Assembly (NCBI GenBank): GCA_030530875.1
Contig: JAUMUD010000013.1
Coordinates: 1-53,771, forward strand
Source of the DNA: Corynebacterium sp.
GTDB taxonomy: Bacteria > Actinomycetota > Actinomycetes > Mycobacteriales > Mycobacteriaceae
Length of the DNA: 53,771 nt
Direction of reading: 5' to 3'
Part shown: piece after piece, positions 44 to 7,910 of the stretch
Position numbering within the stretch: the stretch's first letter is position 1
Layout: every line of letters begins with the position of its first letter
Position numbers and translations under genes: made by a program
The notes under the pieces: model-generated
What the model was told of the DNA's origin: nothing
The model's input: the letters and a program-made list of their open reading frames with translations, nothing else
Databases searched by the model: none

Positions 44-84
44 AGGGTCCTGTTTTAATGTGTGCCACATTAAAACAGGACCCT
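44..84 (-). terminator. Strong hairpin after the small-exported-protein operon
   Basis: A perfect 19-bp inverted repeat (arms 44-62 and 66-84, 3-base loop) lies just past the stop of the minus-strand gene ending at 90. The arms carry an A-tract/T-tract within the stem, and there is no separate T-run beyond it. It is probably the terminator of the downstream operon. The 38-52 segment can alternatively pair with 10-24 (13 of 15 positions). Confidence 0.6.
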
Positions 85-89
85 AATAA

Positions 90-392
90 TTAGTGCGAAG
101 TGTCTGGCACTGGGAGGGGTGGAAGGATGCGGTAATAGATCATGAGGTTGATGGCATTGCCGGCAAGGAAGGCAAGCAGGGCGCCGAAGGGGGCGGCGAA
201 GAGGAGATTGCCGAGAATGGAGCGGGCGCTTAATTCCAAAACCCTGCCATCAGACATGCCAGTATAGGTCCAGATGCGGAACTGGATTGGCGCATTAATG
301 GCATGGGCCGCAGAGGACTGCTGAGCAGCCACGATACCAGTGGAAAGAGTTGCTGCCGCAGTAGCAGTAATTAGGAGCTTTTTGATTTTCAT
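90..392 (-). CDS. Small exported single-membrane-segment protein, array member 1
   Basis: A 100-residue protein with no recognised family. It has a basic N-terminus and hydrophobic core with a likely signal-peptidase site after AHA near residue 31. A short polar stretch follows, then one long hydrophobic segment at about residues 58-90 and a short proline-rich tail (LPPLPVP). Its start overlaps the stop of the preceding gene in an ATGA, so translation is probably coupled. It is the last gene of a four-gene operon that ends at the hairpin 44-84. The end of the membrane segment has IYYRILPPL where siblings have a Tyr-Asn motif. It is probably anchored in the inner or outer (mycolate) membrane; function unknown. 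Confidence 0.8.
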   Translation of the reverse strand: MKIKKLLITATAAATLSTGIVAAQQSSAAHAINAPIQFRIWTYTGMSDGRVLELSARSILGNLLFAAPFGALLAFLAGNAINLMIYYRILPPLPVPDTSH

Positions 393-673
393 CGGTTCAT
401 CACCGCCAGGTTAGCCGCACGGATGGATTGGATAATACCAAGGTCAACTAGCACGTTATACATCACAAATGGGGATAGCACCCAGATGAGGAAATTAGGA
501 ATAAAAACTATATTATAAAGGCTGGTGCCAATGGCCCCCGCATCAGAGCTTCGTGCGGAAGCTTGTGGGGCGAGCTTCATTGAATCAGGCGCAATGGCAG
601 GGGTAGAGGCAAAGACCAGGCTAAGGCCAAGTAATGCAGAGCCATAGCGCAGGGCGCGTGCTTTGGCTTTCAT
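389..673 (-). CDS. Small exported single-membrane-segment protein, array member 2
   Basis: A 94-residue protein. The signal peptide is visible (basic MKAKARALRYG, then a hydrophobic core, possible cleavage after AIA). The mature part is mainly one hydrophobic segment at about residues 53-78, ending in MYNVLVDLG and then a basic tail (IIQSIR). That ending closely resembles members 3 and 4, so the three look like diverged duplicates. The ribosome site GAAAGGA lies just before the ATG at 673, and the stop overlaps the next gene's start. No enzyme motif or metal-binding cysteine is seen. Function unknown. Confidence 0.8.
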   Translation of the reverse strand: MKAKARALRYGSALLGLSLVFASTPAIAPDSMKLAPQASARSSDAGAIGTSLYNIVFIPNFLIWVLSPFVMYNVLVDLGIIQSIRAANLAVMNR

Positions 674-696
674 CGTGGGTCCTTTCGTGGCGGTGA

Positions 697-993
697 TTAG
701 TGGATAAAGCTCGGGATTTCTTCCTCGCGGAGGCGCTGAACCAGGCCATAATCAGCCAAAGTATTATAGGACAGAGAAATGATGAGTCCCAGTACAGCCC
801 CACGAATGGCCAAGGTAGCAGCCGTGAGTAGATAGGGAATGACAAGAACAATGCCAGTGCCAATGGCACCCAGAACAACAGCCGGGGCAGCAAGGGCAGA
901 GATTGGTTCAGCCTGAGCCCGCGGGGAGGAAACACTAAGTACACCGGCAGCAAGGGCGAGGCTCATTGTGGCGGCGAGGAATTTCTTTTTCAT
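697..993 (-). CDS. Small exported single-membrane-segment protein, array member 3
   Basis: A 98-residue protein with a clear signal peptide (MKKKFLAATMSLALAAG, likely cleavage after RAQA). It continues with a long Ala/Ile/Leu/Val-rich stretch, residues about 36-75, that could form one or two membrane segments. It ends in SYNTLADYG followed by LVQRLR and an acidic tail. The ribosome site GGAGG stands well placed before the ATG. It lies 8 bases after member 4 and 23 bases before member 2, so it belongs to the same operon. No known family recognised. Confidence 0.8.
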   Translation of the reverse strand: MKKKFLAATMSLALAAGVLSVSSPRAQAEPISALAAPAVVLGAIGTGIVLVIPYLLTAATLAIRGAVLGLIISLSYNTLADYGLVQRLREEEIPSFIH

Positions 994-1001
994 CGTGCCT
1001 C

Positions 1002-1343
1002 CTACGCATCCCTAATTGAGCGATAAAGGCCACCATCGACCATGATGTTATACATGAACAGGGCCATTATGAGGTCCACAAGAATTCCACGAGGGGTCGA
1101 GGAACCTTCAGTGGCTAAGTCCCAGAGGTGTGCCCAGCCCAAGGTATCAATGAGGCTTGAACCGGTAGGCTTTTCCGAGCTACCAAAAACCGAGGAAAGA
1201 TTAGCGGCAAAACTCTTTTCCGAGCTTGCTGCGTCATCAGCCACTGCGAAGGGTGAGTTCAGAAATCCGCAGGTCAACGAGCAGATGAGGTAAAAAGATG
1301 CGAATCTTTTGGCGTAGCGTGGAAGGGTTCCTTGACCTTTCAT
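1002..1343 (-). CDS. Small exported single-membrane-segment protein, array member 4
   Basis: A 113-residue protein. I place the start at the ATG at 1343 because the only good ribosome site (AAGGAGT, 1351-1357) stands 7 bases before it; an in-frame upstream ATG at 1361 overlaps that site. The signal peptide ends near AVA. A Ser-rich, weakly charged region of about 45 residues follows, then a membrane segment ending MYNIMVDGG and LYRSIR, the C-terminus. This is the first gene of the downstream operon (1343 to 90), since a terminator lies upstream of it at 1421-1443. Unknown function. Confidence 0.8.
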   Translation of the reverse strand: MKGQGTLPRYAKRFASFYLICSLTCGFLNSPFAVADDAASSEKSFAANLSSVFGSSEKPTGSSLIDTLGWAHLWDLATEGSSTPRGILVDLIMALFMYNIMVDGGLYRSIRDA

Positions 1344-1420
1344 GAGGGACACTCCTTCCATAGCTAATGATGACTTAAGAATATCATATGCACCAACCCT
1401 TTTTCGGCTTAAAAGCCCAT

Positions 1421-1443
1421 AAAAAATGCCCGCCGAAGCGGGC
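1421..1443 (-). terminator. Rho-independent terminator between the two small-protein operons
   Basis: The 6-bp GC stem (1428-1433 with 1438-1443, loop of 4) is followed on the minus strand by six T residues (1421-1426). It lies 27 bases after the stop of array member 5 and separates members 5-7 from members 1-4. Confidence 0.8.
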
Positions 1444-1469
1444 TGTGTTAAGCGAAGGAAAATCGGGGA

Positions 1470-1745
1470 TTAGCTCGAACCGGGGAGAGCAGGAAGGGTA
1501 GGGATGATTGTGCGCAGGTAGTTATAGAGCGCAGAGCCAATAACAATATTGCCAGCGGAGCTCAGTGCCATGGGAACCAGGGTGAGGGTAAGAACAGAGG
1601 AGCCCACATTTTCACTGGAGGTCTGCACTTGGCTAGGGAGCGCATCAGCCTGGGACTGGGGTGCAGAAAGCCCAGCACACAGTAGGACTGCGGTCAAAAC
1701 AGCCGTAGCAAAACGGAGAGCCTTAGGTTTTTGAATTTTTGCCAT
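1470..1745 (-). CDS. Small exported single-membrane-segment protein, array member 5
   Basis: A 91-residue protein. The signal peptide (MAKIQKPKALRFATAV..., likely cleavage after QADA) is followed by a Ser/Gln-rich stretch and a single hydrophobic region at about residues 50-78. It ends with LYNYLRTII and a Pro-rich tail (PTLPALPGSS) that resembles the tail of member 1. It is the last gene of the upstream operon (2441 to 1470), ending at terminator 1421-1443. Ribosome binding upstream of the ATG is weak. Function unknown. Confidence 0.75.
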   Translation of the reverse strand: MAKIQKPKALRFATAVLTAVLLCAGLSAPQSQADALPSQVQTSSENVGSSVLTLTLVPMALSSAGNIVIGSALYNYLRTIIPTLPALPGSS

Positions 1746-1803
1746 GTACCCATCATGGGCAATGCAGCTCCGCTAATGCCCAAGGGGGCATGGGAGAAAA
1801 ATA

Positions 1804-2139
1804 TTAGTTCCCTGGCCCGTTAAGAGGCACAGCTGGGCGCTTAATAAAATTGACCTCATAGAGCAGCTGATAAATCACAAAAAGTGCTGCGCCAAAAGCG
1901 GCACCTTTAAGCGCATAGGAAGGAATAGTAAGGAAAAACTGCTTTAAGAGACTCTGAGAAGAATACGCAAGGAAGCGCTCATTGGTGCAGTCCGTGGTGG
2001 GGTAGAGGCCACCGAGCCCAGCACTAATCATGCAGGGTGGATTTTCATAAGCATCCGCTGGTGCCGATGTCATTAATGTGGGTGCCAGCAGGGTCGTCGA
2101 TAGGCTAAGAGCACAAAGCGTGCTAGTGAATTTTTTCAT
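1804..2139 (-). CDS. Small exported single-membrane-segment protein, array member 6
   Basis: A 111-residue protein with a signal peptide (MKKFTSTLCALSLS..., probable cleavage after PADA). It is the only member with two cysteines in the mature ectodomain (in NPPCMIS and TTDCTNE), which could form a disulfide. A hydrophobic segment at about residues 70-93 ends with IYQLLYEVN, a variant of the Tyr-Asn motif, then a Pro/Gly tail. Its ATG overlaps the stop of member 7 (ATGA), which indicates coupling. Function unknown. Confidence 0.8.
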   Translation of the reverse strand: MKKFTSTLCALSLSTTLLAPTLMTSAPADAYENPPCMISAGLGGLYPTTDCTNERFLAYSSQSLLKQFFLTIPSYALKGAAFGAALFVIYQLLYEVNFIKRPAVPLNGPGN

Positions 2140-2441
2140 CGCAGCCCCGCATTCATAAAGCTAAGCGCAGGGTTCTGTGTCAAAAACTGCGCACCGGCCG
2201 GGCTTTGGACCCACCAGAAAAGCAGATTATAGGTACCCGCCAAGCCAAGATAAAAGGCAATATAATTAAAGAGCCAATCATAATCAAGGAATGGCGAATA
2301 GGAAGAAAGCAGCACAGGATTAACCGCATGGGCTTGAGGCGTGCTTAGAACCGTGGCGCCGAGGCCTAAGGAAATAGTGCTGATGAGGGCAAGGGTGCGG
2401 ATGGATTTCCTGCGAAACCTAGGCTGAATGCGTGTTTTCAT
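2136..2441 (-). CDS. Small exported single-membrane-segment protein, array member 7
   Basis: A 101-residue protein and first gene of the upstream operon. It has a strongly basic N-region (RFRRKSIR), a hydrophobic core and a likely cleavage site after AHA. An aromatic-rich segment follows (many Tyr, Phe, Trp), containing TYNLLFWWV. The tail after the membrane segment is longer than in siblings. The ATG at 2441 has an AAGGGAT-like ribosome site about 12 bases upstream and a perfect TATAAT about 60 bases upstream. No known family recognised. Confidence 0.8.
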   Translation of the reverse strand: MKTRIQPRFRRKSIRTLALISTISLGLGATVLSTPQAHAVNPVLLSSYSPFLDYDWLFNYIAFYLGLAGTYNLLFWWVQSPAGAQFLTQNPALSFMNAGLR

Positions 2442-2620: not shown

Positions 2621-3943
2621 ATGGGACAAAACACAGATTCAAAGAAATCTGTCGGTGTAGCAATCCTCGGTCTGGGCACAGTAGGTAGTGAGGTTCTCCG
2701 CCTGCTTAATGCTCACGCAAATGACTTTTACCACCGCATTGGGGGCACAATTGAGGTAAAGGGCGTGGCTGTGCACGATCTGAACAAGGAGCGCCCTGGG
2801 GTGGATCCCGCTTTGCTTACCGACGACGCTGAAGCGCTCATTAACCGTGATGATGTTGATATTGTGGTTGAAGTTATCGGTGGCATTGACTACCCACGCA
2901 AGCTGGTTTTGGCAGCCCTTAATGCCGGCAAGTCTGTGGTGACTGCCAATAAGGCCCTGGTGGCAGCGCATTCTGAGGAACTTGCCGCTGCCGCTGATGC
3001 TGCTGGCGTTGACCTTTATTATGAGGCTGCTGTGGCGGCTGCTATTCCTGTTCTTGGCCCACTGCGCCGCTCCCTGGCTGGTGACCAGGTCAAGAGTGTG
3101 CGTGGCATTGTTAATGGCACCACCAACTTCATTTTGGATGCTATGGACTCCACCGGCGCAAGCTATGATGAGATGCTCGCGGAGGCCACCCGCCTGGGCT
3201 ATGCCGAGGCTGACCCAACCGCCGATGTTGAGGGCCATGATGCTGCCTCCAAGGCTGCAATTCTTGCATCCCTGGCCTTCCATACCCGCGTGAAGTACGA
3301 TGATGTCTACTGCGAGGGCATTTCTAAGATCACGGCAGCTGATATTGAGGCCGCCAAGTCCGCTGGTTTCACCATTAAGCTTCTGGCTGTTTGTGAGCGC
3401 TTTATTGATGATGATGGCATTGAGAAAATCTCTGCCCGCGTTCACCCAACCCTGGTTCCACGCAAGCACCCACTGGCCAGTGTGGCCAAGTCCTTCAATG
3501 CCATCTTTGTTGATGCTGAGGCTGCTGGTAATTTGATGTTCTACGGCAATGGTGCTGGTGGTAACCCAACCGCTTCTGCTGTTTTGGGTGACCTGGTTGG
3601 TGCCGCCCGCAATAAGGTGCATGGTGGTCGTGCCCCTGGTGAATCCACCTATGCTGATTTCCCAATTGCGAAATTCGGTGATGTTCATACCCGCTACCAC
3701 GTGGATATGGAAGTTGAAGACCGCATTGGTGTGCTGGCTGAGGTTGCTGATCTCTTTGCTGCTGATAATATTTCCCTTAGCACTGTGCGCCAGGAGGCCG
3801 GCAATAAGGAGCGCAATAGCGCACGCCTGATTGTGGTCACGCATAAGGCCAAGGAAGCAGCGCTTTCGGCAATAACTGCGAAGCTCGCTAAACTTGAATC
3901 TGTTAAGGCTGTTAACAGCGTAATCCGTTTGGAAGGTGAATAA
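2621..3943 (+). CDS. hom: Homoserine dehydrogenase
   Basis: Reduces aspartate semialdehyde to homoserine with NAD(P)H, at the branch point to threonine and methionine. The 440-residue protein has the dinucleotide-binding GLGTVGSEV near the N-terminus, the catalytic-domain stretches NGTTNFILD and EADPTADVEG, and a C-terminal ACT domain (DRIGVLAEVADLF) of the kind that mediates threonine feedback. The start is placed at ATG 2621 behind GGGAG. The upstream in-frame ATG at 2576 adds 15 residues not expected in the family. It lies 3 bases before thrC. Confidence 0.95.
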   Translation: MGQNTDSKKSVGVAILGLGTVGSEVLRLLNAHANDFYHRIGGTIEVKGVAVHDLNKERPGVDPALLTDDAEALINRDDVDIVVEVIGGIDYPRKLVLAALNAGKSVVTANKALVAAHSEELAAAADAAGVDLYYEAAVAAAIPVLGPLRRSLAGDQVKSVRGIVNGTTNFILDAMDSTGASYDEMLAEATRLGYAEADPTADVEGHDAASKAAILASLAFHTRVKYDDVYCEGISKITAADIEAAKSAGFTIKLLAVCERFIDDDGIEKISARVHPTLVPRKHPLASVAKSFNAIFVDAEAAGNLMFYGNGAGGNPTASAVLGDLVGAARNKVHGGRAPGESTYADFPIAKFGDVHTRYHVDMEVEDRIGVLAEVADLFAADNISLSTVRQEAGNKERNSARLIVVTHKAKEAALSAITAKLAKLESVKAVNSVIRLEGE

Positions 3944-5044: not shown

Positions 5045-5962
5045 ATGTTTACTGAACTTCCTGTTGGCACCAAGGTCAGCGTTAAGGTTCCGGCCTCCTC
5101 CGCGAACCTCGGCCCTGGTTTTGATACCTTGGGCATTGCGCTGAGCCTCTATGACACCGTCGAGGTGGAAGTCATTGCCGATGGCATCGAGGTTGAGGTC
5201 TTCGGTGAGGGTGCGGAATATCTCCCACGCGATGGCCGCCACCTGGTTGTGCGCGCTATTCAGAGTGCCCTGCGTGAAGCTCAGGTGAAAGCCCCTGGTC
5301 TTCGCGTGGTCTGCCACAATAATATTCCGCAATCCCGCGGTCTTGGCTCCTCGGCGGCTGCTGCCGTGGCTGGCGTTGCTGCCGGCAATGGTCTTGCCGG
5401 TAGGCCACTGACCGATGCCCAAATGGTGCAGCTTTCCTCCGCCTTTGAGGGCCACCCGGATAATGCCGCCGCCTCGGTTCTTGGTCAGGGCATTGTGTCC
5501 TGGACTGAGACCTTCGTCGATGGTACGGAACCGCAGTATAAGGCCGTGCAAATCCCTGTGGATTCACACATTCGCGCCACCGCCCTCATTCCGGATTTCA
5601 AGGCCTCCACGGAAGCCGTTCGCCGCGTGCTTCCATCCGATGTCACCCATATTGACGCCCGATTCAATGTTTCCCGCGTTGCTGTGATGACTGTGGCCCT
5701 GCAAAAGCATCCTGAACTCCTCTGGGAGGGCACCCGCGACCGCCTCCACCAGCCATATCGCGCTGATGTTTTGCCGGTCACGGCCGAATGGGTGAACCGC
5801 CTGCGCAATAAGGGCTATGCCGCCTACCTCTCCGGTGCCGGCCCAACCGCCATGGTTTTGCACACTGAGGACATTGACCCACAAATCCTCGACCAGGCCC
5901 GCGAATCTGGCATTCGTGTTCTCGAGCTCCACATCGCTGATGGTGTGGAGATTGAGAATTAA
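5045..5962 (+). CDS. thrB: Homoserine kinase
   Basis: A GHMP-family kinase that phosphorylates homoserine with ATP, feeding ThrC. The 305-residue protein shows the N-terminal [16 protein letters not shown], the ATP-binding loop [14 protein letters not shown] and the C-terminal [11 protein letters not shown]. The ribosome site AAGGA lies before the ATG. It is the last gene of the hom operon, followed by the terminator at 5988-6030. Confidence 0.96.
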
Positions 5963-5987
5963 TCTAGATTACTGGCGCTAGCCACAT

Positions 5988-6030
5988 AATCCCGAGTTTC
6001 AGCACATATCGCTGGACTCGGGATTTTCTT
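5988..6030 (+). terminator. Terminator of the hom-thrC-thrB operon
   Basis: A 10-bp inverted repeat (5988-5997 with 6016-6025) is followed by TTTTCTT. It lies 26 bases after thrB and before the convergent acyl-CoA synthetase gene. Confidence 0.8.
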
Positions 6031-6149
6031 ATATCCGCCCCTAGTGCCCATTGTTGCGCGGATTTTAATTCTTGCTTTTCGACAAAACCTATTGGCGCGC
6101 ACAGTACCGACGCTGTCACGCTGGCACACTGTCACACTGTCGCACTGAC

Positions 6150-7910
6150 TCATTCATCCAGGGAAATACGGATGACATTAAAATAGCCGTGGGCATCATT
6201 GGCACGCAGATCAATCTTGTCGAATTTACCCACGCTGGTTTTATCCACGCGTTTCACAAAGCTCCAGTATTCAGGAATCATCCACTGCGGGAAAATATCC
6301 TTCATACGTTTAGCAAGGATCAGTGCAAGGTCGGCGTCGCCCTCAAAACCTTCATTGAGGCGCACAACCGCCAGTGGGCGTTCACCCCAGGTCGGGTCAG
6401 GATGACCGATAACCGCGCATTCATAGACCTCTTCATTGGCCATAATGAGATTTTCTAGGGGCACGGAATAAATCCACTCGCCACCACTGCGAATCACATC
6501 CCGAATGCGGTCCTCAACAGTCAAGAAGCCATCATGTGTAACAGAACCCACATCGCCAGTGGCGAACCAAATATCGCCCGTCTTTTCATCTTTAATAAAG
6601 GAGTCCTCAGCATATTCGAGGTCCTCACCATTAAAGGAATCAACCGAATCGGAGCGGTAATACTGCTTGGTGACCCATGGGCCGCGCACATAAATTTCAC
6701 CATGATTACGGTCAGTACCAGTCACAATGCTGCCATCATTGACCACACGGTAATCAACAGAAGCAGGGAAGCGGCCCTGACTAATGCGATAATCCCAGCG
6801 CTGTTCACCATGAAGCCCAGCTGGTGGGCGTGCCACTGTGCCAACCGGGGACATCTCCGTCATGCCCCAACAATGAATCACATCCACACCAAAGGACTGC
6901 TCCCAGCGGCGAATAAGATTTGGTGGGGCAGGGGCGCCACCGGCAAAAATTTCACGCAAGCTCATGCGTGTCGGAGGATTGTTTTCATAGTGGGAATATA
7001 GTGAAGTCCACACACTTGGCATGCCAGCGGCCATCACTGGATGGGTAGAGGCAATGACCTCAGCAAGGACCTCAGGTGAATTTTCCTCAGCAATAAAAAC
7101 CAGAGGGGCACCGCACATAAATGCAGCTAGAGGTACACCCCAGGATAAAACATGATAAATCGGCACCGTGGCCAGGAAGGTACTTCCCTGCGAAATTGCA
7201 AAAGAATCAGTGGTGCGCAAATACAGCGAATGAAGATAAAGAGAGCGGTGTGAAAAGAGCACACCCTTTGGTGCGCCAGCAGTACTGGTGGAATAACATA
7301 ATGCAGCAGCTGTATTCTCATCAAGAGCTGGCCATTCATAGGTGGAAGGCTTGGAATCAAGCAGCTCTTCATAGCGATGAAGTTGCACGCGACTTGGGAA
7401 AAATCCGGAATGCAGGTACCCGGAAATAAAGACAATATCTTTGACACATGCACAGTGGCGCACAATACGGGCAAGGCGTGTGGCCAATCGTGGATCGGCG
7501 AAAATTACCTTGTCCTGGGCATGATTAATGATAAAAATAAGCTGCTCATCAGAAAGCTGAATATTGAGCGGATGAAAAACTGCACCCTTGCACGCAGAAG
7601 CGAAGAGAATTTCAAGATGCTCGGAGCAATTAAACATAAAAGTTGCTACGCGGGCATCGCCAGTCGCACCCAAATCTTCATCCAAAACATGGGCTAGGGC
7701 AGCAGTACGTGCACCAATTTCACGAAAACTCTGGCTTTCAATTTCTAAATTGAAACTCTCAGTCGATGAATCTGAACTGGTCTTTTCCTGCTTTTTGGCA
7801 GCTCTATTATCACTACGAGCGGTTTTAATGGTAGTCTCAGAGTTAACGGTGCGCCCGTATTCAAATATCCGCGCCACTGACAGCGGAATCTCCTGCATTG
7901 TGCTGTGCAT
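6150..7910 (-). CDS. Acyl-CoA synthetase / fatty-acid-CoA ligase (AMP-binding family)
   Basis: An adenylate-forming enzyme that activates a carboxylic acid, probably a fatty acid, to its CoA thioester. About 586 residues. The ATP-binding motif appears as YSTSTAGAPKG, followed by the family stretches HCWGMTEMSP and WFATGDVG and the hinge region DRIRDVIRSGGEWI. The start is uncertain: I use ATG 7910 (MHSTMQEIPLSV, as in FadD relatives), but a TTG at 7931 is also in frame and neither has a good ribosome site. A charged insert (about residues 35-50) follows the N-terminus. It stands alone, convergent with thrB and divergent from rho. Substrate cannot be told. Confidence 0.88.
   Translation of the reverse strand: MHSTMQEIPLSVARIFEYGRTVNSETTIKTARSDNRAAKKQEKTSSDSSTESFNLEIESQSFREIGARTAALAHVLDEDLGATGDARVATFMFNCSEHLEILFASACKGAVFHPLNIQLSDEQLIFIINHAQDKVIFADPRLATRLARIVRHCACVKDIVFISGYLHSGFFPSRVQLHRYEELLDSKPSTYEWPALDENTAAALCYSTSTAGAPKGVLFSHRSLYLHSLYLRTTDSFAISQGSTFLATVPIYHVLSWGVPLAAFMCGAPLVFIAEENSPEVLAEVIASTHPVMAAGMPSVWTSLYSHYENNPPTRMSLREIFAGGAPAPPNLIRRWEQSFGVDVIHCWGMTEMSPVGTVARPPAGLHGEQRWDYRISQGRFPASVDYRVVNDGSIVTGTDRNHGEIYVRGPWVTKQYYRSDSVDSFNGEDLEYAEDSFIKDEKTGDIWFATGDVGSVTHDGFLTVEDRIRDVIRSGGEWIYSVPLENLIMANEEVYECAVIGHPDPTWGERPLAVVRLNEGFEGDADLALILAKRMKDIFPQWMIPEYWSFVKRVDKTSVGKFDKIDLRANDAHGYFNVIRISLDE

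Follow-up and report, generated by a model that had tools for sequence, protein, structure and literature searches.

We analysed a stretch of 53,771 nucleotides (hereafter the window) from Corynebacterium sp. (GenBank assembly GCA_030530875.1, contig JAUMUD010000013.1), which starts at a contig edge of a host assembly of 2.19 Mb in 67 contigs (G000). Next to that edge, reading of the open reading frames (ORFs) reveals an array of seven consecutive minus-strand genes, G1–G7 (positions 2441–90), divergent from hom, which we take to encode homoserine dehydrogenase (Table 1). The names lysA, thrC, ppk2, groEL2, comEC and holA are likewise ones that we presume from the look of the ORFs. An original prediction, made from the DNA letters alone, had placed seven consecutive genes for small exported proteins of 91–113 residues here, and the ORFs are indeed found. 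By eye, all seven N-termini combine a basic start, a hydrophobic core and an A/S-x-A signal-peptidase site (AHA, ADA, SQA, AVA, AQA, ASA and AHA in G1 to G7), in agreement with the signal peptides proposed for them. Cleavage at these by-eye sites would leave mature chains of 54–81 residues whose hydrophobic segment lies close to the C-terminus, the last residues being R, N, S, A, H, R and H. The proposed architecture of a polar ectodomain followed by a single C-terminal segment does not extend to G5, since its mature part is nearly all hydrophobic and by eye resembles two segments. G4 has an alternative start, an upstream ATG at position 1361 that would lengthen it to 119 residues.

The proposed arrangement in two operons, G1–G3 and G4–G7, is plausible, as it fits the ATGA overlaps (G1/G2 and G6/G7) and the hairpin after G3. 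The hairpin counts for little here, the terminator scan having returned 6 terminator-like sites against a mean of 2.8 in shuffled sequence. At the edge itself, window bases 1–55, in reverse complement, are identical to the terminal bases of another contig of the same assembly (C25), and the two sequences part inside the palindrome at 44–84, as if the assembly had broken at a repeat adjoining the array.

Table 1. Features of the array and its surroundings in the window (YN family and its subtypes as defined in the text)
Feature	Position	Strand	Description
G1	2136..2441	-	101-residue predicted exported protein; orthologue H1 in G058; YN family membership not demonstrable
G2	1804..2139	-	111-residue predicted exported protein; two ectodomain Cys, each conserved in H2; ATGA overlap with G1
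G3	1470..1745	-	91-residue predicted exported protein; C-terminal end LYNYLRTIIPTLPALPGSS
Terminator-like hairpin and T-run	1428..1443	-	3' of G3; possible end of first operon
G4	1002..1343	-	113 residues; YN family subtype A
G5	697..993	-	98 residues; YN family subtype B
G6	389..673	-	94 residues; YN family subtype A, tail longer
G7	90..392	-	100-residue predicted exported protein; ATGA overlap with G6
19-bp inverted repeat	44..84	.	Downstream of G7, at contig edge; possible terminator
hom	2624..3943	+	Conserved right-hand neighbour, diverging from array

All seven genes recur in a second genome, G058, between lysA and hom and with order and strand unchanged. Its hom is 94% identical to that of the window, and the array proteins align with their orthologues (H1–H7) at 33–54% identity over aligned codons, with blastp E-values from 7e-38 (G7) to 1.5e-10 (G5) and of 1e-28 for G1 and H1. 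The ratio of nonsynonymous to synonymous divergence (dN/dS) is 0.37 for G2, 0.48 for G3, 0.21 for G4, 0.44 for G5, 0.18 for G6 and 0.19 for G7, against 0.05 for the hom control; dS of these six pairs is near saturation (1.3–3.6), and that of the G1 pair is saturated. In G7, conservation is strong from APIQFRIW up to the membrane segment. The seven ORFs are genuine conserved genes, fast-evolving yet constrained by purifying selection. Co-occurrence in other Corynebacterium genomes, suggested earlier as a check, is partial: the whole array recurs in G058, but profile matches of G1 and strong matches of G7 are limited to 2 of 201 genomes (G000 and G058), with five more for G7 at E 0.005–0.05. A scan of the genome contigs with G1 gave no match.

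No member of the array matched Pfam, NCBIfam or PHROGs at a curated cut-off, which bears out the earlier view that the proteins belong to no known family. Weak matches such as TM7S3/TM198, SCIN, SPIN and IsaB all lay under curated cut-offs and were discarded, and a phage origin was rejected in the absence of any PHROG match up to E 0.1. Among the closest known systems are the porins PorA and PorH (NF033925, NF033937 and NF033938), also small envelope proteins with paired genes. However, PorA and PorH have no signal sequences according to the available part of PMC12632848, whereas all seven array proteins appear to have them, and NCBIfam porin models are absent from the matches of G1–G7 up to E 5. 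Moreover, at the ppk2–groEL2 place, where porA and porH lie, G000 has separate small genes, one matching the PorH model NF033938 at 24.2 bits (cut-off 30) and another, PorA-like, matching no model. On these grounds we rejected both the identification of the array with PorA/PorH and the idea that it replaces porins in this genome, although the porH-like and probable porA genes stay below model cut-offs; the original exclusion of PorA/PorH is thus most likely correct. A mycolate-free host was likewise rejected, for G000 contains ketosynthase frames of a size that we associate with Pks13 and FAS-I, along with seven esterase-family matches, six of them above 60 bits. In G058, the ppk2–groEL2 place (L256, contig C18, 5831–7419, minus strand) contains several small ORFs that by eye resemble porA/porH, outnumbering those of G000; a scan of three gave one weak PorH match, below cut-off, and no match for the other two.

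Three of the seven proteins share a feature that allowed us to define a family, which we call YN: a C-terminal hydrophobic helix followed by the motif Y-N-x-L-V-x-x-G-x-I, no more than about 30 residues from the end, and a short tail. The motif positions are occupied by Y in 33, N in 33, V in 31, G in 24 and I in 22 of 34 members, counts that partly arise by construction because a profile supplied the members and the motif served to align them. G4, G5 and G6 all have this arrangement. Scored with a model of 17 members from other species, G6 exceeds all 400 shuffles, G5 all but one and G4 all but three, while H4 and H5 exceed all 400. A second model, of 31 members, left the array out and retained same-genome paralogues; with it, hhalign gave 89% for G4, 96.5% for G5 and 88% for G6, and among 646 ORFs of the window G5 ranked first (E 8e-5) and G6 second (E 0.008). 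G4 is best tied to the family through the blastp match of H4 to the paralogue C34a (E 4e-9). From these comparisons, G4, G5 and G6 belong to the YN family.

For the other four proteins, the same model returned 36% (G7), 16% (G2), 9% (G3) and 0.7% (G1), values that have no hhalign control, and its scores were reached by 417, 84, 86 and 495 of 1000 class-preserving shuffles, respectively. The best hhalign alignments set TYN of G1, IYQ of G2, LYN of G3 and AIN of G7 at the family YN; G2, G3 and G7 share the family register below significance, with YQLL of G2 opposite YN. The original view of the array as one family expanded into separate roles is supported for G4–G6 and their paralogues elsewhere in the genome, and the profile searches suggested at the time carried the relationship no further. 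Three points count against the family reading: kinship of G1, G2, G3 and G7 to the family is unproven, G1 showing no relation; the H6 score was reached by 8 of 400 shuffles of the 17-member model; and G4 on its own has an E-value of only 0.73 over the window ORFs, behind a chance ORF at 0.44.

A full-length profile (A1) reached 92 of 201 Corynebacterium genomes at E ≤ 0.01, with many rows covering the signal-peptide half only, and was set aside for a C-terminal profile of 26 rows (A4). At E < 1e-6, A4 has 38 matches, 26 of them its own rows and 12 new, at 24 loci in 21 of the 201 genomes; at E ≤ 0.05 it reaches 48 genomes. Half of the loci (12 of 24) contain two or three members. When 301 genomes were drawn from the taxonomic family, 31 genera in all, YN profile matches at E ≤ 0.01 fell in Corynebacterium and in none of the other 30 genera, and the listed results of open-licence literature searches showed nothing on the family. 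No library searched has a name for the YN family, which has been seen so far in Corynebacterium only. The place upstream of hom recurs in 12 of the 24 loci, namely eight lysA–hom gaps, the window itself (with lysA past the contig edge) and loci in G167, G097 and G037 that lie about 2 kb or less upstream of hom. Of 21 relatives whose lysA is visible, 20 have a lysA–hom gap of 125 to 5138 bases, and in 8 of the 21 loci the gap holds at least one small array-strand protein matching the family model. Among 80 loci, five with members belong to C. pygosceleis, C. marambiense, Corynebacterium sp. 13CS0277 and two metagenome-assembled genomes (C. glucuronolyticum and S11A_Sa_2_sub). In C. pygosceleis, C. 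marambiense and G160, the region upstream of hom encodes long members (L043, 7048–7656, minus; L044, 2331–2777, plus; L048, 7067–7663, minus), whose ectodomains consist of repeated GSS-containing units that vary in number by species.

In this lineage, the family divides into two subtypes by the shape of the tail. In subtype A (G4, and G6 with an extension) the tail continues into a short basic terminus, for example EPLRR or RSVRR, and in subtype B (G5) it ends in IPxF-type residues. A second YN locus lies between comEC-like and holA-like genes in G000 (C31, L145) and at the matching place in G058 (C24, L090), and G058 has a third (C34, L089). Altogether, adjacent A and B genes occur at two loci in G000 and at three in G058. 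The best paralogue of each member of this lineage, orthologues left out, is of the same subtype in 12/12 cases (7/7 A, 5/5 B), a comparison that was not blind, as the labels were assigned from tail shape and some similarities were known beforehand. The simplest account of same-subtype best paralogues in adjacent genes is joint duplication of an A–B pair, which suggests that A and B are co-duplicated partners. The array itself has the order A–B–A, so strict one-to-one pairing is not required. The pairs give indirect support to a hetero-oligomeric envelope assembly, which the YN proteins probably form. Further small proteins adjoin these loci in G058. Two proteins of about 180 residues flank the third-locus pair (L089, contig C34, 49–609, plus, and 5793–6395, minus); they look related by eye, both containing NFGSS and both ending in TSS. 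A third small exported protein, of 67 residues, adjoins the A/B pair between the comEC-like and holA-like genes (L090, contig C24, 6580–6377, minus); none of the ORFs listed for the equivalent region of G000 corresponds to it.

The YN tail also occurs on larger proteins. A 5'-nucleotidase of G135 (Pfam PF02872, 122 bits) ends in the module (profile E 1.9e-4), with an LGSDS repeat leading into the helix and through to YNWAVQQGWIRPIQLP. Four more proteins with signal-peptide-like starts end in it as well (L125, L126, L131 and L132). For each of the five, the score exceeded those of all 1000 class-preserving shuffles, with the restriction that the proteins had been picked by the same profile, so that the shuffles control composition and not selection; in addition, the N-terminus of the 5'-nucleotidase, where a signal peptide would lie, falls outside the DNA covered. 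Both points limit what the larger proteins can say for the tail. The same tail on an enzyme and on tiny proteins suggests a role in positioning proteins, with the small ones consisting largely of anchor; the YN tail accordingly looks like an anchor module, as far as sequence comparison can indicate. Two proteins were left out as bearers (L082, matched by 247 of 1000 shuffles, and L053 6647–7255, matched by 28), and a third candidate, PS2-like and encoded on C25, was rejected because its tail was matched by 998 of 1000. The last (L007, 10029–8386, minus) has 548 residues, a signal-peptide-like start, a TTEPATTEP-type linker and a C-terminal hydrophobic segment, a layout that recalls PS2; it had no match in Pfam or the PDB, nor a significant one to the module.

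A helpful comparison is with PS2 (CspB), the S-layer protein of C. glutamicum. The available parts of PMC12021427 and PMC12337289 describe PS2 as having a Sec signal peptide and a hydrophobic segment at its very C-terminus, and both features are found in the array, the signal peptide by eye and the segment by computed hydrophobicity. PMC12021427 attributes a signal peptide, a disordered region and a hydrophobic anchor at the C-terminus to PS2 and to further putative mycomembrane proteins, one of them a metallophosphoesterase. PS2 without its last 27 residues is mainly released (cited in PMC12337289). Longer YN members share with the PS2-like anchored proteins a Ser-rich stretch before the segment, and PS2, too, is said in the partial sources to occur only in Corynebacterium. 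Unlike PS2, the YN proteins have no lattice domain or coiled coil, and the Y-N motif is not mentioned for PS2 in the accessible portions of the two papers.

The Ser/Gly stretches could be compatible with O-mycoloylation. Like O-mycoloylated C. glutamicum proteins, the YN proteins are predicted to be exported and have Ser/Gly/Ala-rich stretches of the kind found around modified serines (PMC11066868, available in part); the same source gives no strict consensus, which makes the resemblance weak. The motif GS[SA] occurs 25 times in 30 members (the 34 minus 4 longer than 125 residues) against 4.6 expected and a maximum of 15 in 1000 shuffles, an excess that kinship inflates and that is only suggestive; G5 and G6 have none.

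Taken together, these likenesses lead us to propose small Sec-exported proteins that would be tail-anchored in the mycomembrane as PS2 is and would be hetero-oligomeric. After cleavage of the signal peptide the chain would cross the inner membrane, and the tail helix would anchor the mature protein in the mycomembrane like the C-terminal helix of PS2. Ser/Gly-rich stretches ahead of the helix could be O-mycoloylated, and A and B partners, with G1–G3 and G7 as further subunits, may form hetero-oligomers at the surface, either structural or channel-like. Location and function being read by analogy, we hold this proposal tentatively, at slightly less than an even chance. It agrees with the presence of a YN gene beside ppk2, in the porA/porH place, in G045 and G138; the neighbouring porH is confirmed in G138 (NF033938, 56.7 bits), and in G045 the neighbours are porA/porH-like with a PorH match below cut-off. 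Of the 21 family-bearing genomes, 20 also have a Pks13-sized ketosynthase frame, the miss being a 53% complete genome, but the base rate in the genus was not measured. Small-xxx-small patterns, as might serve helix packing, are enriched in the helix (84 against 67.5; 3 of 1000 shuffles did as well). A more far-reaching version, with the tail as a genus-wide signal for sorting and anchoring into the mycomembrane, used from the array proteins of about 60 residues up to the 5'-nucleotidase, and with A/B pairs as hetero-oligomeric complexes, possibly channels, multiplied at two or three loci, is doubtful in our estimate.

Several observations speak against placing these proteins in the mycomembrane. 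In 33 of 34 members the tail carries more positive charge than the ectodomain, as in inner-membrane proteins with the C-terminus inside. The 34 are 39 proteins minus five (one sequence, present twice, with no usable start and three near-duplicates), and the boundaries are crude, with automatic cleavage sites that require A at −1 and differ from the by-eye sites in G5 and G6. A terminal F is found in 4 of 34 members and a terminal P or K in none, so that an F/P/K rule fails in 30 of 34; terminal F is itself no general mycomembrane signal in the part of PMC12021427 available. A4 matched no PS2 chain at E ≤ 1 in the PDB copy searched, the PS2 sequence not having been compared directly. GxxxG is not enriched (5 against 9.1), and eight other genomes read, among them G183 with its porin side cut, have no YN gene beside ppk2.

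The serious rival is that the YN proteins are ordinary type I inner-membrane microproteins, with a cleaved signal peptide, a periplasmic ectodomain, a stop-transfer helix and a short basic cytoplasmic tail, acting as small subunits or regulators of inner-membrane envelope machinery. The strongly hydrophobic segments and the charge difference in 33/34 members are what this explanation would expect. It accounts less well for the same tail on a 5'-nucleotidase after a Ser/Gly-rich repeat, as in the proposed mycomembrane-anchored proteins (PMC12021427, available in part), and for single-copy members beside ppk2 in the porA/porH place of two genomes. We give it a substantial minority chance.

Clearly less probable is a new mycomembrane channel whose signal-peptide-bearing subunits do the work of PorA/PorH, with helical A and B proteins forming a hetero-oligomeric pore. 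The A/B pairs, the small size and the position at the porin locus in two genomes are in its favor, as is the proposal of a hetero-oligomeric pore for PorA–PorH (PMC12632848, available in part). However, the genome already has porH-like and probable porA genes, albeit below model cut-off, the array has no sequence relation to NCBIfam porin models, and its helices are hydrophobic and by eye not obviously amphipathic. We regard as least probable that the array is no single system and that G4–G6 merely stand beside unrelated, fast-evolving exported peptides of like design: G1 is unrelated, G2, G3 and G7 fall below significance, and strong G1 and G7 matches occur in just two genomes, but the seven-gene order is kept in G058 at 33–54% identity, and hhalign, if uncontrolled, places all four motif variants at the family YN.

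Whichever membrane holds them, the YN proteins are most likely anchored, probably paired, proteins of the envelope, judging from their sequences. In the available part of PMC12632848, the routing and retention of mycomembrane proteins are described as poorly characterised. A C-terminal module that is defined by sequence and common to tiny paired proteins and a large enzyme would offer a handle on whether a tail signal, as opposed to lipidation alone, targets proteins to the mycomembrane. Since the module can be tested with simple fusions, the finding is worth pursuing, and it might let mycomembrane proteins of Corynebacterium be predicted from sequence.

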